In this document: positions 6,570-28,352 of the stretch, piece by piece
Position numbering within the stretch: position 1 is the stretch's first letter
Layout of the letters: each line of letters opens with the position of its first letter
Source of the DNA: a virus
DNA: 28,352 nt
Reading direction: 5' to 3' (one strand)
IMG/VR virus record: IMGVR_UViG_3300030090_005709
Location: 1 to 28,352 of that record
Made by a program: the position numbers and the translations under genes
Notes under the pieces: model-generated
Seen by the model: the letters and a program-made list of their open reading frames with translations, nothing else
Database searches by the model: none
What the model was told of the DNA's origin: nothing

Positions 6570-7580
6570 ATGGGATTTAGTTGGGACACAGAAGGACTTG
6601 AAGCCTCAAGTCGTTTGCAAGATCTTCATATATCTTCTGCCGAAGATGCGTTGACTCGATTTATAAACAACGGGATTAGAAGAACTGAGCTTAGAACTGA
6701 TGGTGGAACTTATGATGGATCTGAAAAAAACCTATATGAAAAACAAGGGTGGTTGAAATCAGAGCAAATTTATAAGCCTGAGTTCTACGGATCTCCATCA
6801 CCAAGGATGGATGCTGTCAGCGGACACTGTCATTTTAGAGAGACAAACAACGACTTTAGCAAGAGTGCTCTTTTTCAAGCAGACGTTTCGGGTTCTGACT
6901 ACCAAGCTATTCCTGGTCTTTGCACTCGAATCAAGTTGCATCACAAGGCTGCTGTATATGTTCATACAAGCTTTTATGCATACGAAATAGGCGGCTTGGC
7001 CGACACGTACAGTCTTTCTCATTTTGGACGTGGAATCACTGATAGGCTGCCATACGCAGGTTACCACGGTTCAACTGCTGCAGACTTTAGGTTGATGATC
7101 AATGGCAGCACAATGTCCAGCACAAAAAGAAAAGTTTTTGTTTCTACACTTGAGCCGTTTCCGGCAGCATTTGGTGATAGTAGAATCAAAGATGGTGATG
7201 ATGCAACAACATCTAATTATGGATCTATTGAAAGCCACATCAGTTTTGATGAGCCCAACTCAGCAACAGATAAAGACAACCAAATGAATGACGGGCAGTT
7301 GTTTTTCAACATGCTTTCAAGGCATCAACATTTTTTAACTTATGCAACAAAACTAGAGCCAGGTATTCACGACATTGGTATGGCCTGCAAACCAGCCAGC
7401 CAAAGCGATGTATTTACGCTGCAGTTGCGTCAATATGACAATCAATCTGACAGCGTCCAAATGATGAAATACTATGGCGTCGAAGCCGGTGAAATGCCTG
7501 AGTTCAAGCGAAAGAAGCACATTTTTGTTGTTGCCAGAAACCTCGTTGTCGATTCTTATTATTACGAAACTGATTCTTGA
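6570..7580 (+). CDS. Putative tail structural protein, third of three similar genes
   Basis: This 336-residue protein starts 4 nt after the preceding stop, with GGACA just upstream. The N-terminus (residues 15-40) has a helix DLHISSAEDALTRFINNGI. Beta strands follow: TRIKLHHKAAVYVHTSFYAYEIG, then DFRLMINGSTMSS, which lines up by eye with WRIVINGQAVAES in the gene at 4728. The C-terminus KKHIFVVARNLVVDSYYYE again ends in a basic beta strand. It is the last gene before a 63-nt gap with a candidate promoter, so it may close a transcriptional sub-block. Function is unknown; a virion tail component is inferred from context. Confidence 0.5.
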   Translation: MGFSWDTEGLEASSRLQDLHISSAEDALTRFINNGIRRTELRTDGGTYDGSEKNLYEKQGWLKSEQIYKPEFYGSPSPRMDAVSGHCHFRETNNDFSKSALFQADVSGSDYQAIPGLCTRIKLHHKAAVYVHTSFYAYEIGGLADTYSLSHFGRGITDRLPYAGYHGSTAADFRLMINGSTMSSTKRKVFVSTLEPFPAAFGDSRIKDGDDATTSNYGSIESHISFDEPNSATDKDNQMNDGQLFFNMLSRHQHFLTYATKLEPGIHDIGMACKPASQSDVFTLQLRQYDNQSDSVQMMKYYGVEAGEMPEFKRKKHIFVVARNLVVDSYYYETDS

Positions 7581-7582
7581 TA

Positions 7583-7594
7583 GACATCGATGTC
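7583..7594. promoter_or_regulatory. Perfect 12-bp palindrome in the intergenic gap
   Basis: GACATCGATGTC is an exact palindrome starting 3 nt after the stop of the preceding gene and about 25 nt upstream of the candidate -10 element. It could be an operator half-site pair or a small mRNA structure. Nothing identifies a binding protein, and a palindrome this short can occur by chance. Confidence 0.2.
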
Positions 7595-7617
7595 ATCATG
7601 TCTTTGAGTTTAGAAAA

Positions 7618-7626
7618 TGTTAGAAT
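7618..7626 (+). promoter_or_regulatory. Candidate extended -10 promoter upstream of the internal-protein genes
   Basis: TGTTAGAAT matches the sigma-70 extended -10 layout (TG, one base, TAnnnT). It lies in the 63-nt gap before the ATG at 7644. No good -35 hexamer sits at the standard distance, as is usual for extended -10 promoters. The case is helped by similar elements in the two other clear gaps (12743 and 19751/19770). Confidence 0.3.
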
Positions 7627-7643
7627 GAAATCGGAGTCCCGAT

Positions 7644-8153
7644 ATGAGCATTGAAAAGTACGAACAGGCTGGACGAAGAGCCGGTAGACTCGAAGGCGAG
7701 GCCATGGGTCGAGCTACGGGCAAGGCCAAGGGTTCTGCTGTTGGTGGTGCGGCTGGAACTGTTGGTGGCGCTGTACTTGGTCAGATTTTAATTCCTATCC
7801 CTGGCGTTGGTGCTGCTGTTGGCGCAAGCTTGGGTGGTACTGTTGGCGGTTTTCTCGGCGGTGTTTTTGGTGGCAAAAAGGGCGCGAAAAAGGGCGCGAA
7901 AAAAGGCGCGAAAAAAGGCGCTAGAGTAGCACGAAGAGAATACCGTCAAATGCATAGGGATAAACTTCGGAAGCAAGAGGCCAGTGAATTGAAGGCAAGA
8001 GCTGAGATTGAGCAGGCAAATACTGCAGCAATCCTTGCGAAGAAAATGTCCGATGACCAAATCTTGCAAGGCTCTATGGCTGAACCATTCCCTGTTTCCT
8101 CAGAATACGGTGGAAGTCAGTTTGATCAATTTGAACGTAGACGATTTGGGTGA
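7644..8153 (+). CDS. Glycine-zipper membrane-active virion protein with GAKK repeats
   Basis: This 169-residue protein starts at an ATG with CGGAG 8 nt upstream. Residues 31-77 are almost all Gly, Ala, Val, Ile and Leu with repeated small-x3-small spacing, a glycine-zipper pattern typical of membrane-inserting helices. A basic stretch, residues 77-98, follows: three perfect GAKK tetrapeptides (80-91) and then Arg-rich sequence. The C-terminal half is a charged helix. Short proteins of this type, encoded ahead of larger internal proteins, match the role of small ejection proteins (T7 gp14-like) that insert into the host envelope. A holin or toxin role is less likely given the position among structural genes. 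Membrane activity is inferred from composition. Confidence 0.6.
   Translation: MSIEKYEQAGRRAGRLEGEAMGRATGKAKGSAVGGAAGTVGGAVLGQILIPIPGVGAAVGASLGGTVGGFLGGVFGGKKGAKKGAKKGAKKGARVARREYRQMHRDKLRKQEASELKARAEIEQANTAAILAKKMSDDQILQGSMAEPFPVSSEYGGSQFDQFERRRFG
7881..7916 (+). repeat. Three tandem 12-bp repeats encoding GAKK
   Basis: The unit GGCGCGAAAAAA occurs three times in a row (7881, 7893, 7905); the first copy has G as its last base. A partial copy, GGCGCT, follows at 7917 and a related GGCAAAAAG precedes at 7872. The near identity at synonymous positions suggests recent slippage-type expansion. Copy number may vary between relatives. Confidence 0.85.
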
Positions 8154-8158
8154 ACGAT

Positions 8159-9310
8159 ATGAGTAATGGAACTGTGAAAGAAAAAGATGAAGATGATGAT
8201 CTCCTGACGGAATCAATGTTTGAGTCTACGTCTAAAGAAAACGAGCCAAGCAATATCAGACGTGAACTTGCTGAACAAAGAAAACGAGATGAGGCAAAGC
8301 GTGCGGCCATTCTTGGTGCAGGCGGTCTTGTGGGTGCAGGATTACAGGCTCTAAACATGCGGTCTATCTTCAAAGACCCAACGATTACTTCCATGCAAAG
8401 AGATCTGGCTTCTGCAGCAGCAAGGACAAGAGAACGCGGCCCTGTAATGACTGAAAGGGAAGAGCAAGACATTGTAGAAAGTGTTGTAGCTCCAGTACAA
8501 AGACGAGTAGAGGCTGTTTCTGATGAAGTACAGGCCAGGGCTGCATCTACCGGTGATACGTCTGCTCGAACTCAACTCCAAGCAGAAGCGTTTGGATTGA
8601 AGCAAATTAGTGATCAAGCATTGAAAGGCAGGGCCTTGGCTGCACAGGAAAAAGTTGTCCGTCGATCTGAACGCAGAGCCAGAATCGAGCAGGCAAAAAG
8701 AGAGCGGGATGAGATTCGCGCAACAATGCTTGAGCTCCGAAATGCGTACATTCGTGAGCCAACACACAAGTTCATTGGTGAAGTTGCTAAGTTTGCTGGC
8801 ACAATGTTTGGTTATTCAGCATCCAGAGGGTACGAGCCTGAGTACAGAATGGCTCGCGAAAAGGGTGCTACCGCAGATGAATTGAAGCAGCTGAAGCAAA
8901 TGGAAGGCAGATTATTCGCTCGTAAGAAGATGAGGGACTATCTCAAAAACGTCGTTATGGATAAAGACAATGAGCCTGACCCAAGACAACAAAGAGGTCA
9001 AGGCTCAAGAACCAGGGCGACAGAAGAGGGCCTTGCTGACGAACAAACTCGACGAGATGCGTTGAATCAGCCTCCTCCACAGTTCGAATACGTTGAAGGT
9101 GAAACTGCTGCTGTAATGGAGCCTGGAGATACTGTTATGGATCGAGCACCTAAAGGCAGATATCGTGGTGTTGTGTACGAGATGCTGGAAGGCGGTGACA
9201 TTCAGTTTGAGTTGGGTGGAGAAATAAAAACAGTAAATAAAGATGAAAATCCAAAAGCGCATGCTGCGATTATGGAACTTTATAGATCAAAAACGCTGAC
9301 GGGAAGTTGA
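8159..9310 (+). CDS. Helical candidate internal virion protein
   Basis: The chosen ATG at 8159 has GGGTGA upstream and gives 383 residues. An in-frame GTG at 8150 would add three residues and overlap the previous stop. An acidic start is followed at about residues 45-65 by a Gly/Ala-rich hydrophobic patch (ILGAGGLVGAGLQAL) that could touch membrane. A long charged coiled-coil region follows at about residues 80-195. The C-terminal 60 residues look like a small beta domain (GDTVMDRAPKGRYRGVVYEM, GDIQFELGGEIKTV). No catalytic motif is visible. Placement between the glycine-zipper protein and the other helical proteins suggests an ejected or core protein. Its stop overlaps the next ATG as TGATG. 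Confidence 0.5.
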   Translation: MSNGTVKEKDEDDDLLTESMFESTSKENEPSNIRRELAEQRKRDEAKRAAILGAGGLVGAGLQALNMRSIFKDPTITSMQRDLASAAARTRERGPVMTEREEQDIVESVVAPVQRRVEAVSDEVQARAASTGDTSARTQLQAEAFGLKQISDQALKGRALAAQEKVVRRSERRARIEQAKRERDEIRATMLELRNAYIREPTHKFIGEVAKFAGTMFGYSASRGYEPEYRMAREKGATADELKQLKQMEGRLFARKKMRDYLKNVVMDKDNEPDPRQQRGQGSRTRATEEGLADEQTRRDALNQPPPQFEYVEGETAAVMEPGDTVMDRAPKGRYRGVVYEMLEGGDIQFELGGEIKTVNKDENPKAHAAIMELYRSKTLTGS

Positions 9311-9861
9311 TGGCACCCCGCTCGCTAAATCGCCGCGAGTACGGGGAGTTCAAGCAGATGCTGCAGCAGGCTCTTCGAGAGATTCGTTTGCCTGGTGGGA
9401 TTATTGATTCAGATCATATTGTTCCCGGCTCGATTGACCCATCGCTCTGCAACATGGATGCAAATTGGAACTTTAAAGGCGTTGTGACGGCTGGTGCAGT
9501 GAGACTGAATGAGATTCAGAGTCGAATCAACAAAATCGTTCAGGACGCAAACCAACCAGAGGAATCACAACAAAAGAATAGAGTTGTAGAGTTGGATGAT
9601 AGGGCGAGTGCAGGAGATGAGGATATTTATTTTCTCGATGCACGAACCAACTCGAACGTTTTGACTTTGCCACCAGTCGCTCAAAATGTAGGTCGAAAGA
9701 TATACGTCAAGCGAATAGACAAAGATAGCAATAAGATATGTCGCGTTATAACCTCTGGAGAAGACAAGCTTGATGACACATCTGGTATCGAGCTTGATGC
9801 CAAAGAAGCAGTAATTCTGATAGCATCAACCAAGCAATGGTACGTTTTTTCTAGCTTGTAG
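9310..9861 (+). CDS. Short fibre-like tail protein with C-terminal beta domain
   Basis: This 183-residue protein starts at the ATG of a TGATG overlap with GGGAAG upstream; the in-frame TTG at 9307 is less likely. The N-terminal third has IIDSDHIVPGSIDPS and NWNFKGVVTAGAVRLNEI, a style typical of marine phage fibre and tail-attachment proteins. Residues 95-183 hold a beta domain with DIYFLDARTNSNVLTLPPV, GRKIYVKRID and EAVILIASTKQWYVF, a pattern seen at the C-terminus of many phage fibres where it trimerises or binds ligands. Its place inside the internal-protein cluster is unusual for a fibre. It might be a tail plug or a fibre-attachment knob. Fold class is likely; exact role is unknown. Confidence 0.55.
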   Translation: MAPRSLNRREYGEFKQMLQQALREIRLPGGIIDSDHIVPGSIDPSLCNMDANWNFKGVVTAGAVRLNEIQSRINKIVQDANQPEESQQKNRVVELDDRASAGDEDIYFLDARTNSNVLTLPPVAQNVGRKIYVKRIDKDSNKICRVITSGEDKLDDTSGIELDAKEAVILIASTKQWYVFSSL

Positions 9862-12768: not shown

Positions 12769-15700
12769 ATGGCTGACGAAAACACATATTTGTATTCTGG
12801 TGACCTATCTGAAGATGACCTCCTGTTGTTAAATAGCTACGGCAGTAGAGGTGTCCCTAAAATAGAAGATTTTTCGGTTGATATGAAGGAACCGGAAGTG
12901 CCTGTACAGCCGGAAGTGGCTGTGCCTGCATCCGAGTTGGTATCTCAGTATAGATCGGGATTTGAGAGACCTTTAGAAACTGCAGAAAAAGAAGATCAAG
13001 CAGAAGATTGGGCTGAGCGTAGAAGGGCGTTCTACGAAGATGCAATCAACGAGGGTCGCAGCCAAAAAGAGGCAATCGAGGAATCTAGAATCCGTGCAAA
13101 CGGATCTATGCTCACTGGTCAGTATGGAGTTTATGATCGTCCAGATGAACAACTAACGGGTGAGACTGGAGTAACAGTTGCTGTTTCTAAGGCACTTGGT
13201 GGAAGAAGAGCGATAGATATACAGCGTAGACCAACAGATCCTGAAACCGGACAGACACAAGACATCTCAGCAGCGAACATCCAAGATCGGCGGGATTCTG
13301 CTAAAGAGTTTCAAAAAATACTCGAAACAGAAGGTTTGTTTGCTGCAGGCAAAAAAGCATTTTCAAGCAAACCAATGACCTTGGATGAAGCCAAGGAAGT
13401 CGGAATTGGTGCTGGTCGTCAGACGTTTTTTGGTCGAGATCAAGAAGCCGAAGATGAACAAGAAGGGTTTTACATTCCGTATGGAATCAAAAACCTGGAC
13501 GCACTGGCAGAGCGTGCAGCAGTAAAAGCAATGGTTCCAAGCATGTTTGCGAACTTGTTTTTGGACGATGATGAAATGGAAGCGTATCTGAAAGAATACA
13601 GAAACGTAGTTCCAACACAAAACTTTTCAGCGTTGGTTGAAAAAGTTGAATCGAGCAAAGAACAAGGGATGACTGAGTCCGAGATTGAGCAGGAGCTTAT
13701 GCCTGAAATCAGCTCGATTCTTTTGATGCAAACATATGAAGATTTGCCAGCAGCATTCCAACTTGAGAAACCCTCAGTATCTAAGTTCAAATCATTTTTA
13801 GAATCAAACCCTGAAGCGTTTAGCGAAACCAGAGACTCTGCACTTTTTGAAACAATAAAAGCTGTTGATCTTGGTGAGTCTGACAAAGAGATTCAGAAAA
13901 AACTGAACGCTGTTGCTTTTGGATCGTTGCCAGAAGAGGTTTGGGCTGGTTCCACTGGTTCACCAAGGGCAGCATTGAAAGAAGCGGTGAGGGCTGCAGG
14001 TCGCGTTATTGAGGCTAAAGGCAGAGGTGGTAAAGTAGGCCGCGCTCTTGCAACGACTGTCGCTTCACCGATGTTTACCCAGGAGAAGATTCAAGACGAA
14101 TACATGGTGGTTGAAAGCACAATCGGTAAAATATTCCGATCTTTGGGTGTTTTCACTGAGGGTGCTGCAGAAGCAAGGCTTCCATTCGATATTCCAATCA
14201 CACCAGCAAGTCGCGATTTCTACTATGATCTTGGTATTCGTGGCCAAGACTCGACATGGCTTGCTCGAATGCTTGCAAATATTGAAACTGGAAACATCGG
14301 CTTCATGATGCACGCAACCGATGAAGCCCGTGCCCGTGGGTATAAAGAGGGTGAAGGTGGGTTTCAGGCGGCACTTTTTTTAGGTGGTGCTTTAGACTTT
14401 TTGATTCCATGGGAAAAGTTCCATTTTTCACCAGCAGCACATACAGTAAAAGGTGCGTCTAGAGGGGCGTACCTGGTTCGTACTGTTGGTGCCAAGGGAT
14501 TCAAGCAACGTGCATTTTTGGCCGGGTACTCTCCAAAAGTATACGACATGATTTATCGTGTTCATGAACGCTCAACGATGTCGTTCAATCGCCTTTCTGA
14601 TCAACTGCCAGTAAACCCAAAGGTGGGTGACATTGATCGTCTTATGGCTCAAGATGACGCAGCTCAGACGGCAAAGGCACAAGGTCTTCCCAGGACCACA
14701 GATGAACAAGGAAACGAAATCGTAGCCATGTCTCTGCAAGATCGTGACTATTTGGATCAGTTGTCACGGAAAATGAAACAGGGTGAGTCTTTTATTGATG
14801 CCGCTGAATCTTTGAAGTCTGACTTTAAGCCAAACGTTTTCGATACAGCGGCTGATGCGGCGATGGCCGTTGTAAAGCATCTTGTTGAAACAGATGAGGC
14901 CGGGACCATATTCAAGAAGTCTGGTCGGGATCCTAATGGTGTGATTCCGTTCGAAATGGACATTCAGGTCCAAAGAACATTGGCTGCTGCTGGTTTTGAC
15001 CCTGCAGAGGTAATCAACATTGTTCGAAAGCGTACAAACTCAAACAGAGAAGCGTACCTTCAGTCTTTGCGTGTTTTGTCTAAAACTGGAGATGATGACA
15101 CTGTCGATTTGCGTAGTTCTCCTGAGTACGTTTCTTTCCGTAAGAAGCTCGATGATCTTGTAGAGTCAGGTGATTTGCTTGATGAAGAGAAGATTGTACT
15201 GCTTAATATTATGGAAACCAGGGCATACAATGCTGCAGGTTTAGATAAAATCAAGACAATCAAAGAGCCATCTGACTTTTTCAAGCAAGCGAAGGTTGAA
15301 AAAGTACAAGGTAAGTTGGAAGATGGATCTGATGGACCAAGCTCAATCAAAGTAAAGTCTGGAAAGATTTTTGAAATCGATCAATCAGACGTTGTTGATT
15401 TCATAGACTTCTTGAAATCGGACGACATGATTTCGATCAACCGACTTTTGGACAACGATCAGTCACTGTTGGTTGCTTTGATGGGTAAAGGCTGGGTGGA
15501 TTCCTTTACTAAAAACAGTTTCAAGAGAGAAACAAACCCCAATCCACAATCTAAACTGCCTAAAACACGACTCACCGACGAGGGCAAAATCGAAGTCGAG
15601 CGAGTTTTAAGGTCTTTGTTTGACGCAGAGGGTAACCTTTCTGCTCAAAAATCGAACGCAAAACAGTTGTTCGAAAACATGACTGCAGTGTACGCCCGCA

Positions 15701-18700
15701 TGGATGAAAAGCTGAAAAAAGCTATGATTCCTGAAACCAAAAAGGCAATGTTGGATACCACTCTACGGCCCGATCGCTTTTTTAGAAACGGTCTGATCGA
15801 ACGAAACATGCGTCAGTCGTATATCCCTGGCTCGACAGTAAGAACTGCAGCCGATGACATGCAAGTTTTGCAAGAGGGGTTGGTAGCCAAGACTGGTCGT
15901 AAGCGAGTTTTTTCAGATGTAGATGTCAATCCAGACTATGTCCGTCAAGGGTTGGGCCTAACAGAAGATACTGTCGAGGTAGATGCTGTTGATCTTTACG
16001 CTCGATCGATTGGGTATGTCTTAGGCGAAACAATGAAGATGAAAGAGGCTACTGCCCTTTTTCGTGGCATGGACATTGTTCGATTGACTCCAGCATCTTT
16101 TGCAAGAAGGGATCAGGTCAAATCGATTCGCAAAAAAGTAAACGCCAAAATGGCATCTGTTCTTGGTATCAAAAAACACAGCACAATATCCAAGGGCGAG
16201 TTTTTGGATGCCAAGCAACTTAAAGCGATGGCTGATCCAGAGTCCAGCACTTTGCAATTAAACGAAGCACAGCAAGCACAATTTAAAGTGTTTCTGCAAC
16301 AACTGGCTTCAGAGCCTATAGTCGGCACGAAGATACCAAACAATCTAATGGGGGCAGGCGCAGATTTAGAGCGTGTATCTTTTCTCGACTACAACCGCGT
16401 AATCGAGCTCTTGATGGATGTTGAGGCTGGTGTACATGCCCGTAGAACGGTTTACACAGAGGCAATACCACGGTCTTTGGCGTATTCATTACTGAATACA
16501 TTTAGGTCTACAGCTATTGATGTAGCTAGTCGAAGTGAAATCGTAGGTGATGTAATCAAAGGTATCGAGTCAAGATTCAATTTAGATGATCCTTTGTCAT
16601 CAGTTCGACCTGAGTTCAAGGAGCTTTTTCAGCGTCATCTGTCTGAGGTTGGTCTCGTTCGTGATGAGGTGATTCAACTGGTTCGTTCTGCAAGAAGAGA
16701 AAAGCCTGATATCGCCATTGAGGCGATTTTCGACAAGCTAAGAAATAATCTTGAAGCAGATATGCGTATCGAAAAAGAACAGGTACGTCTTTTGATGGGT
16801 GAGGCCGATTTAGTTTATGGAAACCCTCACAAAAAAGGCCTTTTAGATATTATTTCAAAATTCACTGATGCCGAGAAAAAACGAATTGAAACTTTAGCGG
16901 GTGTTGAAGATGAAGTTGATTTTCAGCCTATGCAGCCAAGTGAAAGAAAAATTGCAGCAGGAGCCGATGTTAGAGAACAAGCTGCGGTTCCAACCAGTCA
17001 ACTGGTAGAAGATACATTTGCTTTACCAGGAACATTACGTGATCCAGATGCAGCAGCATATGTTCCAATAGCTGAAGGTGAGTCTAGACTCCAATACTTG
17101 ACGAAAACAAGCACAAGAGAGCAACTTCAATACCTTTGTCGTTCTTTTGGTGGGATAAATGGACTTACAAAACAAACGGACGTTGCTCTTTCCATTTTAG
17201 AAAGATTTACTACTGAATCTGGAATAACTGACGTTTCTAAGCTGACAGATGAAAATAGAGTTGTTTTGGGTCAAGCTCTTTTCAAGATTCAAGAGCAATT
17301 GGAGCAACAAAAAAGATACGTCGTACAAAGAGGATCAGACATTCTTGAATCTTTAGGTGGCTCAAGAGCACAATTAAACAAGGCTGATGATGTAGTACTA
17401 AGCACTGCTTACATACTGTTCCATGAAGGTGGCGAGGGGTGGAAAAACTTGCTTCTTTATGCCGCAGGCAGAGGAAAAGATTTAGGTTTCGATCCAGATA
17501 AGATCTCTAAATATAGTCCCGCGCAAGCATATTTAGAAATGGTTGTTCGAATGATGGCGAGGAACAAACTTCAAAATATGTTTGATGACATGATCCGGGT
17601 CGGCATGCCTGGAGCAAACGAAAACTATCGAATACCAAAAGCTGTTGTAACGCCCATGAATGCGAAGTATTCGATTGATGCTCCACACGCATTTTATGAC
17701 CGCGTGAAAGGATACATGAACAGTATTTTCAATGAGTCTCAAGATGTAAGTGAGATTAAAAAATTAGAAGATGGGTCTACTCGACCTGTGGAGCCTGTTT
17801 TGCCCACAGGAGAAGGCTTTGATTACAGGTTTGCTCCATACGAAAAAAAAGGTCGGAGAACATTTAGACATGGGCAATCTTTCCAAGATTTAGAAGCAAG
17901 GATTGCAGCCGAAGAGGTCTTGGTGCGATTCGGTATGAGATCAAGGTCTGCTGAAGATGGCCTTACGATGATTGAGTTTCCTGATGGAAGCCAAACCTAT
18001 GGACCCCAAGGTCTTGCTGATGAGCTTCAAAATGCATTGAACAGGGCGGCAAACATTGGTGCTGCTTATGGAACCAAATCCGCTATGGTGCTTGACCCAG
18101 CAACCGTTGGAACACCGTATGTAGACATTCCGAAAACTGCTCGAGTAAAGACATATACAGGCTTGGCCGATGCAGTCACAGCTCTTTCAAAGTTTTTCCC
18201 GGTAACGTTCCGCAATATTAAAAGAGGTATTACAACCGGATTATTTGTACCCAACCCTGCTTACTACACGGCAAACTTTATGGGTGGTGCGTTGCAGTTA
18301 ATGACTGCAGTTGATCCGATTAAGGCCACTGGAATGCTCATCAAGAACCCCAGGATGACATTGGCTGTGGTGTCTAGAATGTTTGGAGAGGGCACGTATA
18401 AACCATCGCCAAATCACATGATTATCTCTAAAAACGGAATGATCTACAACGCTGATCAGATCACCGAAATGGCGATGCAGTACCGACTCAATTCAAGCTT
18501 TATTCAAGCTGAAACTCAGCGAGGTATGGCTGATGACATTAAAAAGTATATTCGCGAAAACCAAACGCTTACCAGTAACAAAATCGTGGACTTTGCGAGT
18601 GCTTGGAATGATCAGCTTGCTGAGTGCGCAACGGCGATTGATAACTTTTATCGAGTATCCATTTTTATCGATGGTCTCAATGATGGCGTATCTCCAGTAC

Positions 18701-19740
18701 AAGCGTCCAACTTGGCAAAACGAGCTGCCTTTGACTACGGAGCACTGACCGACTTTGAAAAGAAGGTGATGAGAGACACAATCATGTTCTATAGCTACAT
18801 GCGAAAGAACATGGATTTGTTCATGGATACACTGCTGACAAACCCATCGCGTGTCACAAATCAACTCAGAGTCACAAACGGCATTCACAGAGCCAACATG
18901 GAAGAAGATCCACAGGTTGTGCTTCCTGGTTATCAACAAGAACGACTTGCTGGTGCTTTTAAACAAGCACTGTTCAACAAGCATGCATATGATCAAAGAA
19001 TGTACATCATACCGCCGATACCCATTATGGATTCGGTCAATATTTTTATGGATGTTTACGATGCATTCAAGGGTGACGAAGAAGCGGAACGGATGTTGTT
19101 CACCAGACTGGTTCCATGGGCGCAACTTCCAGTTGTCATGGCGCTAGATGTTGATCCTTTTTACGGTCAAGAGTTGTCACGGTTCCAAAAGGTTCCGCAG
19201 TTTTTTCTTGAATGGGACTTGGCGGTAACTGGAGGCATGCTGAGAAGACAACTCGATGTACAGCTATACACGCCCAGGAATCAAAGGTTGAGGCTTGTAG
19301 AGGGCGATGATGATCGCCAAATGTACTTGGCCAAAAACGGCGAGCTCTGGTATTTTATTAGAAATATTGTTCAATTACCAGGCTTGGGTGGTCGTTCGCT
19401 TGTCATTCTTGAGCAGGCAGACAGAGCAAACATGGGTGTAGTTGAGTTTGTTACTGAGGTGCTTCAAAACGGAAGAATGTTCTTAGAGAATGCCGACTTG
19501 GTAGATAAAGTTTCAGACGACTTCTTGAAAGGCGACACCGCCAGCCCGAGAGTTGGTTTGACAGAATTCGATGAAATGCTTGCAATTTTTGGTGTTAGAG
19601 CAATTAATGTTAAAAACTTGGAGCAAGTTCGTAGAGAGCTGCGTAAAGAAAACAACAGGAACTTCAAAAAGTTGCATCCGATCTCACAAAACAAATACGA
19701 GCAACGCAAAGACAAAGAAATTAGGGTAAAACGTGACTAA
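12769..19740 (+). CDS. Giant virion (ejection-type) protein, 2323 residues
   Basis: The largest gene of the window starts at an ATG with GAGGGG 7 nt upstream. The protein is mostly helical, nearly Cys-free, with disordered acidic/Pro-rich sequence at residues 30-60. Around residues 1820-2030 there is a recognisable phage module: NPAYYTANFMGGALQLM, then FDYGALTDFEKKVMRD and MFYSYMRKNMDLFMDTLL. I know this signature (N-terminal hydrophobic turn, then LTxFE and FYxYxRKN) from very large phage structural proteins, often called polyvalent or internal proteins. No lytic transglycosylase, protease or ADP-ribosyltransferase motif could be found by eye. Length and position before the fibre genes correspond to T7 gp16-type ejection proteins, which are usually shorter. 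Virion role is likely; ejection function is inference. Confidence 0.65.
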   Translation: MADENTYLYSGDLSEDDLLLLNSYGSRGVPKIEDFSVDMKEPEVPVQPEVAVPASELVSQYRSGFERPLETAEKEDQAEDWAERRRAFYEDAINEGRSQKEAIEESRIRANGSMLTGQYGVYDRPDEQLTGETGVTVAVSKALGGRRAIDIQRRPTDPETGQTQDISAANIQDRRDSAKEFQKILETEGLFAAGKKAFSSKPMTLDEAKEVGIGAGRQTFFGRDQEAEDEQEGFYIPYGIKNLDALAERAAVKAMVPSMFANLFLDDDEMEAYLKEYRNVVPTQNFSALVEKVESSKEQGMTESEIEQELMPEISSILLMQTYEDLPAAFQLEKPSVSKFKSFLESNPEAFSETRDSALFETIKAVDLGESDKEIQKKLNAVAFGSLPEEVWAGSTGSPRAALKEAVRAAGRVIEAKGRGGKVGRALATTVASPMFTQEKIQDEYMVVESTIGKIFRSLGVFTEGAAEARLPFDIPITPASRDFYYDLGIRGQDSTWLARMLANIETGNIGFMMHATDEARARGYKEGEGGFQAALFLGGALDFLIPWEKFHFSPAAHTVKGASRGAYLVRTVGAKGFKQRAFLAGYSPKVYDMIYRVHERSTMSFNRLSDQLPVNPKVGDIDRLMAQDDAAQTAKAQGLPRTTDEQGNEIVAMSLQDRDYLDQLSRKMKQGESFIDAAESLKSDFKPNVFDTAADAAMAVVKHLVETDEAGTIFKKSGRDPNGVIPFEMDIQVQRTLAAAGFDPAEVINIVRKRTNSNREAYLQSLRVLSKTGDDDTVDLRSSPEYVSFRKKLDDLVESGDLLDEEKIVLLNIMETRAYNAAGLDKIKTIKEPSDFFKQAKVEKVQGKLEDGSDGPSSIKVKSGKIFEIDQSDVVDFIDFLKSDDMISINRLLDNDQSLLVALMGKGWVDSFTKNSFKRETNPNPQSKLPKTRLTDEGKIEVERVLRSLFDAEGNLSAQKSNAKQLFENMTAVYARMDEKLKKAMIPETKKAMLDTTLRPDRFFRNGLIERNMRQSYIPGSTVRTAADDMQVLQEGLVAKTGRKRVFSDVDVNPDYVRQGLGLTEDTVEVDAVDLYARSIGYVLGETMKMKEATALFRGMDIVRLTPASFARRDQVKSIRKKVNAKMASVLGIKKHSTISKGEFLDAKQLKAMADPESSTLQLNEAQQAQFKVFLQQLASEPIVGTKIPNNLMGAGADLERVSFLDYNRVIELLMDVEAGVHARRTVYTEAIPRSLAYSLLNTFRSTAIDVASRSEIVGDVIKGIESRFNLDDPLSSVRPEFKELFQRHLSEVGLVRDEVIQLVRSARREKPDIAIEAIFDKLRNNLEADMRIEKEQVRLLMGEADLVYGNPHKKGLLDIISKFTDAEKKRIETLAGVEDEVDFQPMQPSERKIAAGADVREQAAVPTSQLVEDTFALPGTLRDPDAAAYVPIAEGESRLQYLTKTSTREQLQYLCRSFGGINGLTKQTDVALSILERFTTESGITDVSKLTDENRVVLGQALFKIQEQLEQQKRYVVQRGSDILESLGGSRAQLNKADDVVLSTAYILFHEGGEGWKNLLLYAAGRGKDLGFDPDKISKYSPAQAYLEMVVRMMARNKLQNMFDDMIRVGMPGANENYRIPKAVVTPMNAKYSIDAPHAFYDRVKGYMNSIFNESQDVSEIKKLEDGSTRPVEPVLPTGEGFDYRFAPYEKKGRRTFRHGQSFQDLEARIAAEEVLVRFGMRSRSAEDGLTMIEFPDGSQTYGPQGLADELQNALNRAANIGAAYGTKSAMVLDPATVGTPYVDIPKTARVKTYTGLADAVTALSKFFPVTFRNIKRGITTGLFVPNPAYYTANFMGGALQLMTAVDPIKATGMLIKNPRMTLAVVSRMFGEGTYKPSPNHMIISKNGMIYNADQITEMAMQYRLNSSFIQAETQRGMADDIKKYIRENQTLTSNKIVDFASAWNDQLAECATAIDNFYRVSIFIDGLNDGVSPVQASNLAKRAAFDYGALTDFEKKVMRDTIMFYSYMRKNMDLFMDTLLTNPSRVTNQLRVTNGIHRANMEEDPQVVLPGYQQERLAGAFKQALFNKHAYDQRMYIIPPIPIMDSVNIFMDVYDAFKGDEEAERMLFTRLVPWAQLPVVMALDVDPFYGQELSRFQKVPQFFLEWDLAVTGGMLRRQLDVQLYTPRNQRLRLVEGDDDRQMYLAKNGELWYFIRNIVQLPGLGGRSLVILEQADRANMGVVEFVTEVLQNGRMFLENADLVDKVSDDFLKGDTASPRVGLTEFDEMLAIFGVRAINVKNLEQVRRELRKENNRNFKKLHPISQNKYEQRKDKEIRVKRD

Positions 19741-25328: not shown

Positions 25329-25541
25329 ATGGATACTTTGAAAGCGAAACTCGCATCCCGTAAATTTTGGGCTGCATTCCTTGGGGCACTGATGCCTCCA
25401 GTCTTGGCTTTTTTGGGCGAAGATATTGCACTTGGTGAAGCATTGAAGCTTTCTGCTGGCGTGTGTGTTTCTTACATCCTGGGTCAAGGGTATGTAGATG
25501 CCGCTGAGAAAAAAGCTGTAGCCTCAACACCTGAAGAATAG
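25329..25541 (+). CDS. Holin-like small membrane protein
   Basis: This 70-residue protein has a good ribosome binding site (AAGGAG). A basic amphipathic start (KAKLASRKFW) leads into a hydrophobic segment at residues 13-30 and a second at 39-57, then a charged tail. The SRKFW start and YILGQGYVDAAEKK end are typical of a small two-helix phage membrane protein family often annotated as holin. In that role it would form inner-membrane lesions that release the endolysin. Its place at the head of the lysis block supports this, though no functional motif proves it. Confidence 0.55.
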   Translation: MDTLKAKLASRKFWAAFLGALMPPVLAFLGEDIALGEALKLSAGVCVSYILGQGYVDAAEKKAVASTPEE

Positions 25542-26525: not shown

Positions 26526-26912
26526 ATGGAACCAGTCAGCTTGACCGTGATTGCCGTTATAGCGTCACTGAGCGTCGGCTTTGGTGCTGGCTGGGGCCTG
26601 AAGCCTGATGCTGGTGTAAAAGCGATTGAGGCGCAAACTGAGGCAATTAAAGAGCTAAACAGTGGAAACCAAGAGCTTGTTTCTCAAGTTCAGCAAGTTG
26701 CAATCACTGATGCAGAGCGTGAAGCTTCTATTGCAGACAAACTCACTGACATGCCACCACCTTGTATTAAGGATGTTGGTGGAGACCCCATGTCATTGCA
26801 GTGTATGTGGGCATTGTGCATTCGTACTGGTGAAACAGATAAGCAACGATGTGAGCCATCTAAGTTGACGGATAAGCTACTCGGGTCTTATAACTGTATT
26901 GAGCCTCAATAA
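26526..26912 (+). CDS. Signal-anchored coiled-coil protein, candidate inner-membrane spanin
   Basis: The ATG at 26526, with AGGGTGA upstream, gives 128 residues; an in-frame GTG at 26508 overlaps the previous gene and is less likely. Residues 3-24 are a hydrophobic N-terminal anchor, followed by a helical region (about 30-70) suited to a coiled coil. The C-terminal part holds five Cys, including CMWALCIRTGETDKQRCEP. Type II anchor, periplasmic coiled coil and a Cys-containing C-terminal stretch match i-spanins (Rz-like), which fuse inner and outer membranes at lysis. No embedded lipoprotein (Rz1-like) gene was found by eye in the other frames. Spanin identity is inference from topology and location. 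Confidence 0.45.
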   Translation: MEPVSLTVIAVIASLSVGFGAGWGLKPDAGVKAIEAQTEAIKELNSGNQELVSQVQQVAITDAEREASIADKLTDMPPPCIKDVGGDPMSLQCMWALCIRTGETDKQRCEPSKLTDKLLGSYNCIEPQ

Positions 26913-26922
26913 AGGAGTCACC

Positions 26923-27213
26923 ATGGAACTCAAGGATTTAGCCGTACCTGGAATTACCGTGGTCTTTGCAGCCGGTATTTCGTTTGCTTCTTTTGAGTCT
27001 GCTGCTTCTGATGTTGAAGAGCTCGATCAACGGGTTGAAGTTCTTGAATCGAAGTCAGGCAAGCAAGAGGTGGTTGATGTCAAGATTGAAGGCATTGAGA
27101 ACCGTCTTGAAAAGATGGAAGATATTGTTCAAAAGCTTTTGGACAACCAGCAGCAACAAGCGATTAACATTGCCCAAATCTGCCAAGCCACAAACGCAGA
27201 ATGTAGCTCGTAA
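26923..27213 (+). CDS. Single-pass membrane coiled-coil protein of the lysis block
   Basis: The ATG at 26923 has AAAGGAG 7 nt upstream and yields 96 residues; the in-frame TTG at 26899 is rejected. A short N-terminus leads into a moderately hydrophobic segment at residues 6-27. A strong heptad-like coiled coil follows (VEELDQRVEVLESKSG, then IEGIENRLEKMEDIVQKLLD). The C-terminus has two Cys. It might be a holin regulator, a spanin partner or a second coiled-coil envelope factor. No lipobox is present, so it is not an obvious o-spanin. Its stop is 1 nt from the endolysin start. Confidence 0.45.
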   Translation: MELKDLAVPGITVVFAAGISFASFESAASDVEELDQRVEVLESKSGKQEVVDVKIEGIENRLEKMEDIVQKLLDNQQQQAINIAQICQATNAECSS

Positions 27214-27214
27214 C

Positions 27215-27790
27215 ATGAGGCCATTTCTTCTTGATTATGTGGCTTCTCTTGGTCATACCGTTTTTGAGTCAGGTGAGTACAACCTGAATATTATCGGCAT
27301 TCGTAACCGTAATCACAAAGCCAACAGCTTTGATGACCGCATGTGTGTGGTGTTCAAAGACGAACAGGGATGGATTACCCGTACATGGGAATGTACCACT
27401 GAGCCTGGAAAATATTGGCTTGAGAATCCCACTCGCGTCGAAGGAACTGCTATTCTTGTACCTGGTCAATATCGATCTGTTTGGAAGATCGACAAGCACA
27501 AGGGACAGTATGACGCGCTCTGCCAAAGGAACGGTACGGTCAAAACTTACCGAGACAGCAATAAAGACGACATTGTTGATCTTGATGTACAGTCTATTAC
27601 TGAAGGCTATTATGGAATCAATATCCACAAAGCTGGGTCGGCGTCTACGCAAGTAGATAAGTGGTCTGCTGGTTGTCAGGTATTCAGTCACAGCAAAGAC
27701 TTTGAAGAGTTCATGTCGATTTGCTACGCAGCTCGCAATAAATGGGGCAACGCTTTTAGCTATACTCTGATTGATGAACCGGAGTTCTAA
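27215..27790 (+). CDS. Candidate endolysin with YkuD-like H...SAGC motif
   Basis: The ATG at 27215, one nt after the previous stop, gives 191 residues; an earlier in-frame ATG at 26966 would overlap the preceding gene almost fully and is rejected. No Shine-Dalgarno sequence is visible, so coupled translation is likely. Key residues are H138 in YGINIHKAG and S151-A-G-C154 in KWSAGCQVF. They resemble the H...(S/T)HGC catalytic motif of YkuD-type L,D-transpeptidases, with shorter spacing and Ala in place of the second His. I recall WSAGCQVF proteins of this size as recurrent in phages and bacteria, usually unnamed. An EF-hand-like segment, DSNKDDIVDLD, lies at residues 114-124. There is no signal peptide, so export would depend on a holin. 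Peptidoglycan cleavage is inferred. Confidence 0.5.
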   Translation: MRPFLLDYVASLGHTVFESGEYNLNIIGIRNRNHKANSFDDRMCVVFKDEQGWITRTWECTTEPGKYWLENPTRVEGTAILVPGQYRSVWKIDKHKGQYDALCQRNGTVKTYRDSNKDDIVDLDVQSITEGYYGINIHKAGSASTQVDKWSAGCQVFSHSKDFEEFMSICYAARNKWGNAFSYTLIDEPEF

Positions 27791-28095
27791 TGGAATCCCT
27801 GGTAGACACATTGCTATCAGGGGGTCATCTTGGCGTTTTCGCGGCCTTTCTGGTCTATCAGTTCATGGCGATGCAAAAACGACTGGACAAGCTTGTAGAG
27901 GGCTTTCAAGAGCAGCTTGATGAGATCCGCAAAGAATATGATGCACGTTCTGAAAAGATGCGTGAGCGTTACGATCGCGTCATTCAAGAGTATCGAGATA
28001 CAAATGACAGTCAGTCCAAAGACTTTTTGATCACTCGTACCAAGGTACACAACGACATTGTCAGCAAACTCGACCGTCTGTTGGAAAAAAAATGA
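27790..28095 (+). CDS. BhlA/UviB-like holin candidate
   Basis: This 101-residue protein begins in a TAATG overlap with the endolysin gene. Residues 12-27 (HLGVFAAFLVYQFMAM) are a single hydrophobic segment. A long, highly charged coiled coil follows to the C-terminus (LDKLVEGFQEQLDEIRKEYD, then RERYDRVIQEYRDTND). A short N-terminus, one membrane segment beginning with GVFAAFLVY and a charged helix is the plan of BhlA/UviB-type holin-like proteins. It may be a second holin or an antiholin to the gene at 25329. Its stop lies at the base of the minus-strand terminator hairpin. Confidence 0.5.
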   Translation: MESLVDTLLSGGHLGVFAAFLVYQFMAMQKRLDKLVEGFQEQLDEIRKEYDARSEKMRERYDRVIQEYRDTNDSQSKDFLITRTKVHNDIVSKLDRLLEKK

Positions 28096-28172: not shown

Positions 28173-28241
28173 AATATTGAACAACACCAATAAAGGTGGA
28201 TCGATAATCATTTAACAGATAACGATTGTTATGTAAACTCA

Positions 28242-28309
28242 ACCCCCCACCCGGTAGGAATCGCCCATTTCAGCCCCCGAAATGGGATTAGGCGACGTGG
28301 GTGGGGGGT
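28242..28309. other. Compound inverted repeat (11-bp outer arms, 8-bp inner hairpin)
   Basis: ACCCCCCACCC (28242-28252) is exactly complementary to GGGTGGGGGGT (28299-28309). Between them CCCATTTC (28264-28271) pairs with GAAATGGG (28279-28286) around a 7-nt loop. No T-run follows on the plus strand; on the minus strand only TGAGTTTACA follows. It may be a terminator, an RNA-protecting structure or a DNA element such as an origin or recognition site. The plus strand also holds G-runs (28284-28314) that could form a G-quadruplex competing with the hairpin. Confidence 0.6.
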
Positions 28310-28320
28310 CAAGGGGATGA

Positions 28321-28352
28321 TTAGACTTTCTTCGCTGGTGCTGCACCTTGGG
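28321..28352 (-). CDS. 3' end of a minus-strand gene (partial)
   Basis: Read on the minus strand, the window edge is open and ends QGAAPAKKV followed by TAA (28323-28321). An Ala/Pro/Lys tail is common at phage protein C-termini. The terminator-like structures just downstream on the same strand support a real minus-strand gene ending here. Only nine complete codons are visible, so no function can be given. Confidence 0.45.
   Translation of the reverse strand, partial: QGAAPAKKV

Follow-up and report, generated by a model that had tools for sequence, protein, structure and literature searches.

A candidate phage endolysin with a predicted L,D-transpeptidase (YkuD) fold in an IMG/VR virus and its relatives

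Which gene breaches the cell wall of the host when infection ends is the question raised by the window analysed in this study, by which we mean the whole stretch of 28,352 nucleotides of IMG/VR record IMGVR_UViG_3300030090_005709. This record is a genome fragment that carries on its plus strand, at 27215-27790, an open reading frame whose translation gives 191 amino acids plus a stop. The original prediction had pointed to an endolysin with H138 and S151-A-G-C154; the translation gives all of these residues at exactly those positions, and they are conserved in the relatives described below. The proposed catalytic dyad is encoded on the plus strand at 27626-27628 (H138) and 27674-27676 (C154), the S151-A152-G153-C154 run at 27665-27676, and V156, which occupies the position where transpeptidases have an Arg, at 27680-27682. 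One base separates the stop of the upstream gene from this gene, and its own stop overlaps the start of the next one (TAATG). A longer frame starting at TTG is also present, but in many relatives the open frame starts at the same MRP. Against 11 of 80 viral relatives the gene shows a pN/pS of 0.06-0.20 and thus evolves under purifying selection. The computed basis of our reading consists of the fold, the invariant residues, the position of the gene in a P2-like lysis slot and the domain fusions. On this basis we consider it probable that the gene is the endolysin of this phage, built on an L,D-transpeptidase (YkuD) fold and cutting rather than joining; its role as the lysin in this particular phage, the hydrolysis and the bond that would be cut are what we infer from that basis.

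By sequence, residues 28-189 match phrog_3000 (E 1e-37), a PHROGs family without a function name and labelled as of unknown function, and residues 39-173 match more weakly phrog_33083, which is named 'endolysin' (E 5.7e-14). Both belong to the same sequence family as the window protein, phrog_33083 being longer (456 positions) with the shared domain at positions 297-435. Profile searches of Pfam and NCBIfam gave no credible family over the 191-aa protein; matches to Sod_Cu in Pfam (E 0.068) and SodCCaul in NCBIfam (E 0.095) were taken as chance. The YkuD model PF03734 is absent from the seven Pfam families matched by any of 16 members, while Tlde1_dom (PF10908), which we take to be another YkuD-type Pfam model, weakly matches one of the 16 (E 0.032). 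Sequence searches of the PDB returned only apparently unrelated chains and no YkuD-type chain. By tblastn we found 26 named phage records with a homologue, from crAss-like phages, Bacteroides phages, Pseudoalteromonas phages ACA1 and ACA2 and a prophage, as well as Bdellovibrio phage phi1422 and two very large uncultured phages. The homologue is annotated as hypothetical in 23 of these records and as a peptidoglycan-binding domain 1 protein in one, and two records carry no annotation. Scans added 161 viral stretches, at least 583 of 600 in a further scan, and 137 of 162 in bacterial genome contigs. Our literature basis is formed by passages of PMC10612066, PMC13284279, PMC8310338, PMC5017753, PMC12729407 and PMC8263019, and the literature search, with subscription papers mostly outside its reach, met no assay of this family. 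Phage lysins of YkuD type do appear in these passages: a gut survey names a GH25 / choline-binding / YkuD protein, and PhaLP recognises YkuD among its catalytic classes, with 10 entries and a definition by PF03734, PF10908 or cd16913. The window protein (P0001) differs from that class, as neither PF03734 nor PF10908 matches it at E<=1.

Conservation within the family singles out the same residues as the original prediction. In an alignment of 112 sequences with a mean column identity of 26%, the invariant columns number 21 and include H95, R113, D114, H138, S151, G153, C154 and V156. The patterns that fetched most of these rows contained GIN[I/C]H, so that the invariance of G134-H138 in the scanned rows is by construction; S151, G153, C154, H95, R113 and D114, however, lie outside these patterns. 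H138 and C154 are also kept in all 10 pattern-free rows of a smaller alignment (A1, 16 rows), which represent 10 of the 26 named phage records obtained by tblastn. The His together with an (S/T)-x-G-C motif is found in 16 of 16 A1 rows and, with the same caveat about the patterns, in 112 of 112 rows of the larger alignment. The separation between His and Cys in these 112 rows is 16 in 27, 17 in two, 18 in 70, 19 in five and 20 in eight, so the short spacing that had been singled out in the window protein is real, at the low end of the range of 16-20, but the commonest spacing in the family is 18. The position before the Gly, where a second His had been expected, holds Ala in 111 of 112 rows and Glu in one, and never His (Ala 13, Leu 2 and Glu 1 in A1). 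The Ala noted there is therefore confirmed. Five of ten YkuD controls have His at this position (the others S 2, I 2 and V 1); these controls are drawn from eleven matches in five of six genomes, with L262 dropped before the count. As described in part of PMC12729407, the oxyanion hole is formed by the backbone NH of the Cys plus that of another residue (His352 in LdtMt2). With backbone NH groups to hold the oxyanion, the enzyme can probably tolerate the loss of the second His side chain. With 18 as the commonest spacing and a second His that appears dispensable, the view that spacing and absent second His are atypical for the YkuD fold is not supported.

The predicted structure connects the family to YkuD enzymes. 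The AlphaFold2 model, computed on alignment A2, has a pLDDT of 96.5 and a pTM of 0.92. Foldseek against the PDB gave nothing at E<=1e-3, with Pgp2 ranking first at E 0.15 among unrelated chains; in BFVD five models matched at E<=1e-3, one of them named 'Lysin [uncultured marine phage]' (E 1.3e-14). When 995 of Foldseek's best chains were re-aligned with VIA-align, 56 chains reached Z>=5 and eight reached Z>=8, the best being Pgp2 (9.0), Csd6 (8.8) and Bd1075 (8.7, presumably an L,D-carboxypeptidase), followed by two transpeptidases at 8.2; differences in Z under 1 are counted as ties. The 43 VIA-align rows listed are L,D-transpeptidases, L,D-carboxypeptidases, DpaA, YkuD and Tlde1a, with ambiguous titles for 4xxt and 1zat, the latter of which we take to be Ldtfm. 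Pgp2, Csd6 and Bd1075 share the fold at only 10-16% identity in the structural alignment. A comparison of a predicted structure with YkuD had been proposed together with the original prediction, and the AlphaFold2 model indeed matches YkuD-fold enzymes by VIA-align. Profile comparisons by hhalign with the YkuD controls gave nothing significant: with the ten-control set, H138 and C154 fell opposite the His and Cys of the controls at E 0.12 and 0.11 (two references), compared with 0.43 and 0.42 for reversed controls; another ten-control profile comparison paired C154 only, a three-sequence control set paired other regions by default, and global mode gave nothing. The structural matches indicate that, on the evidence of the model, the window protein has the L,D-transpeptidase (YkuD) fold.

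The residue two positions after the Cys (C+2) bears on whether such an enzyme would cut or join. It is Val in all 112 rows and in 15 of the 16 A1 rows, with Thr in phi1422, and in this respect the family departs from the L,D-transpeptidase class, in which it is Arg. According to passages of PMC8263019, DpaA-like proteins mostly have Ala or Asn at C+2 where transpeptidases have Arg, and L,D-carboxypeptidases likewise lack this Arg; Pgp2 and Csd6 are placed there in the group without it, as the window protein would be. Since Val stands where transpeptidases carry Arg, the sequence predicts that the window enzyme is a hydrolase, perhaps an L,D-endopeptidase. This prediction is tempered by our own controls, only four of ten of which have Arg at C+2 (the others N 2, A 2, T 1 and P 1; the dropped L262 also has R). 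L,D-endopeptidase activity is reported in part of PMC12729407 for two YkuD enzymes and was not seen in others, and DpaA showed no such activity in the passages of PMC8263019 used here. The same comparisons raise two other readings of the fold. The enzyme could be an ordinary L,D-carboxypeptidase or transpeptidase whose role in infection is to modify the host wall, not to lyse the cell. Its best fold matches are in fact cell-shape L,D-carboxypeptidases (Z 8.7-9.0), tied with the two transpeptidases at 8.2, but trimming of terminal D-Ala would leave the crosslinks closed, the Val at C+2 speaks against transpeptidation, and the lysis slot and the fusions to lysozyme and peptidoglycan-binding domains favour degradation; we therefore regard mere wall editing as very unlikely. 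Alternatively, the protein could act like DpaA (LdtF), a PG-Lpp amidase, freeing outer-membrane proteins from peptidoglycan and so aiding rupture of the outer membrane while another, unseen enzyme degrades the wall. DpaA is among the fold matches (Z 7.9), and the C+2 Arg is absent from both DpaA and the window protein as it is from DpaA-like proteins in general (PMC8263019, in the part used), although the window family has Val rather than their usual Ala or Asn. Against this function stand three observations detailed below: in P2-like phages the family gene sits in the slot that holds a muramidase in C5a, it is fused in a huge phage to a baseplate-hub OB domain, a place at which one would expect an enzyme that cuts the wall, and the scanned part of a near-complete relative holds no standard lysin. 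We consider this function unlikely.

The position of family genes in P2-like relatives points to lysis. We searched 159 loci with the tail proteins of ACA1; 29 matched. In 28 of these both tail tube and tail chaperone were found, and without exception the family gene sits between these two flanks. The 28 loci, which include near-duplicates and one broken frame (L156), are not independent events, because the gene itself served to find them and several of them are closely related. Among 75 phage records with an ACA1-like tail tube, four relatives were inspected (phiO18P, SI7, HP2 and C5a). The interval, taken up to the tape measure gene in phiO18P, holds a DksA-like protein, holin, methylase, endolysin and spanin in that phage; in SI7 and HP2 it holds holin, endolysin and spanin, and in C5a a DksA-like protein, a muramidase and further small genes. 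The corresponding slot of locus L227 has a DksA-like protein (recognised by eye; its counterpart in L199 matches PF01258 at E 3.7e-9), the family gene, a hydrophobic protein and an HP1-family holin. The last (9093-9362, PF16080, E 5.2e-10) is the only Pfam holin match among nine hydrophobic proteins that lie in P2-like slots or are called holin, ACA1 gp23 included. In ACA1 itself, the authors of that genome state, in the passages available, that the lysis module is absent from the tail genes, that two holins have been relocated, and that endolysin and spanins were unidentified. We find that gp35, within the tail tube-chaperone slot and not adjacent to the ACA1 holins, is a member of the family and hence a candidate for the endolysin that those authors did not identify; its separation from the holins and the reported lack of a lysis module among the tail genes speak against this assignment. 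The location among tail genes also agrees with a further reading, a virion-associated wall enzyme used for entry, as does the OB-domain fusion in LR756502 (L090). However, in the four inspected relatives this site in the tail region is where the lysis genes are usually found, and the window protein is small and free-standing, beside holin-like and weakly spanin-like genes, so we judge a role in entry to be quite unlikely and retain the endolysin reading. Across diverse viral loci, small hydrophobic neighbours are hardly enriched, amounting to 18 of 218 neighbour genes (8.3%) compared with 10 of 176 others (5.7%), and one is present in 13 of 40 loci; this test began from 159 loci, 59 of them in A2, which form 44 clusters, 40 with enough flank.

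Within the window, the original prediction had placed the gene between coiled-coil membrane genes and a holin-like gene. Upstream on the plus strand lie a spanin candidate at 26526-26912 (start taken as ATG 26526, compared with GTG 26508 in the ORF list), with an N-terminal hydrophobic helix, a coiled-coil-like appearance by eye and a weak match to the Rz-like spanin family phrog_2466 (E 0.14), and a small protein at 26923-27213 (start taken as ATG 26923; the list starts at TTG 26899), with the same two features by hydropathy and by eye; a similar gene lies directly upstream of the lysin in L054 and L071. Downstream, at 27790-28095 on the plus strand, with its ATG overlapping the lysin stop, a 101-aa protein again has an N-terminal hydrophobic helix and looks coiled-coil-like by eye, weakly matches the Rz-like spanin family phrog_1327 (E 0.004) and has a counterpart at the same place in L001, L005, L054 and L071. 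As a holin this downstream gene is the poorer choice, and the better one is the 70-aa protein at 25329-25541 (plus strand), which has two hydrophobic segments by hydropathy, matches the holin family phrog_9987 (E 1.2e-4), lies 1.7 kb upstream of the lysin gene and has a similar gene in relative L001 (3280-3492). Eighteen ORFs of the window were scanned with PHROGs and eight with Pfam. The frame at 7644-8153 matches families named 'tail associated lysin' (E 9.7e-8) and 'endolysin' (E 4.8e-5), and was rejected as a lysin, its low-complexity stretch being one that several tape-measure families match as well. A 2323-aa protein encoded at 12769-19740 was scanned whole and has no credible Pfam or PHROGs match.

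Domain fusions give a further view of what the family does. Ten members were scanned: PG_binding_1 is over the cut-off in L132, L221 and L239 and below it in L217, L214 carries a Phage_lysozyme fusion, and the other five have no lysis-related domain. The L214 protein (7434-8579, 382 aa, Desulfonema magnum) joins a phage lysozyme (PF00959, E 2.9e-45) to the lysin-family domain. In L090 (3068-4582, from LR756502, a 642-kb phage record), a 504-aa baseplate-hub-like protein carries the family domain at its C-terminus, and its N-terminal baseplate OB domain matches PF04717 over the cut-off and phrog_430 (baseplate hub and tail lysozyme). An insert in L089 had looked peptidoglycan-binding-like by eye, and Pfam found no such domain in it. 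Two phage lysozymes are encoded elsewhere in LR756502, and among bacterial loci amidases adjoin the family gene in L229 and GH108 in L244, which indicates that the family domain is not always the sole wall enzyme. Phage_lysozyme was found in one of ten records, three of them crAss-like (LR756502, twice); Amidase_2 and Peptidase_M15_4 were found in none of ten, a slightly different set with four crAss-like records, and PF00959, PF01510 and PF13539 gave no match in G001, G002 and G006. A search for GH108 gave no match and its controls were equally silent, so it is uninformative. The relative G002, of 71,561 bases and classed as linear in IMG/VR, is probably near-complete because its ends agree over 375 bases at 95.7%. 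In this genome we found no lysozyme, amidase or lysin peptidase among 25 of 30 families listed per library in a scan of 90 of 106 ORFs, the 16 shortest being left out and a 2418-aa and a 555-aa protein being covered in part. Its sole lysis label is one member of phrog_33083, presumably the lysin homologue itself. The fold, the P2-like lysis slot, the wall-binding and lysozyme fusions and the lack of a standard lysin among the scanned ORFs of this relative together support both the proposal of a lysin on a YkuD-like fold and its placement outside the lysozyme, amidase and M15/M23 classes.

On these grounds we propose the following mechanism. The window protein has no hydrophobic N-terminal segment by hydropathy and, as a soluble endolysin, would reach the periplasm once the holin has opened the inner membrane. 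With the oxyanion held by backbone NH groups the second His would be dispensable, and Val at C+2 would let water, rather than an amine, resolve the acyl-enzyme. If the meso-DAP-D-Ala bond inside 4-3 crosslinks were then cut, as by an L,D-endopeptidase, the wall would open. Such a scheme offers a testable function and a predicted active site for a phage family to which PHROGs assigns no function, and it suggests candidate lysins for crAss-like and Bacteroides phages, in which the genes are annotated as hypothetical but for one record; if L,D bonds are cut, the lysin would also work by a chemistry that the common lysozyme, amidase and M15/M23 classes do not cover. We further speculate, as a tentative idea that may well prove wrong, that a widespread unnamed family of L,D-endopeptidase lysins is the missing endolysin of crAss-like, Bacteroides and Pseudoalteromonas phages, that it has been reused on the tail hub of a huge phage, and that with a DUF2589 pair it forms a chromosomal module in Bacteroidota, perhaps for the release of cargo by controlled opening of the wall.

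The link to DUF2589 begins at the very end of the window, where 28321-28352 on the minus strand holds the end of a convergent DUF2589 gene running off the window; its final nine codons, ahead of the stop, read QGAAPAKKV as does the end of the L005 protein. Between the convergent genes, at 28238-28315 (no strand assigned), lies a GC-rich hairpin and possible terminator, with -41.1 kcal/mol for 28230-28330 (z -2.34, one of 200 shuffles folding as well). A convergent DUF2589 gene also lies 0.3-2 kb downstream in L001 (6299-6904), L005 (7651-8256), L017 (5385-5990), L054 (5596-6201) and L071 (6905-7510). DUF2589, assigned by tblastn with a Pfam-identified member, is found, often as a pair, near the lysin-family gene in phage relatives and in 15 of 80 bacterial loci (L177, L181, L183, L188, L192, L195, L200, L202, L206, L209, L221, L225, L231, L234 and L242). 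All 19 DUF2589 copies in eight genomes sit at the lysin-family locus, these genomes having been chosen for the link; G002, however, is a counterexample with its DUF2589 gene about 31 kb from the lysin gene. The structure model of DUF2589 is poor (pLDDT 53.6). In the Bacteroidota loci L188 (8001-16500), L192 (7923-16276) and L206 (1162-4667), the family gene is followed by DUF2589a, a protein of about 95 aa, DUF2589b and varying genes, a run which, as read from the translations, looks like a module with changing cargo.
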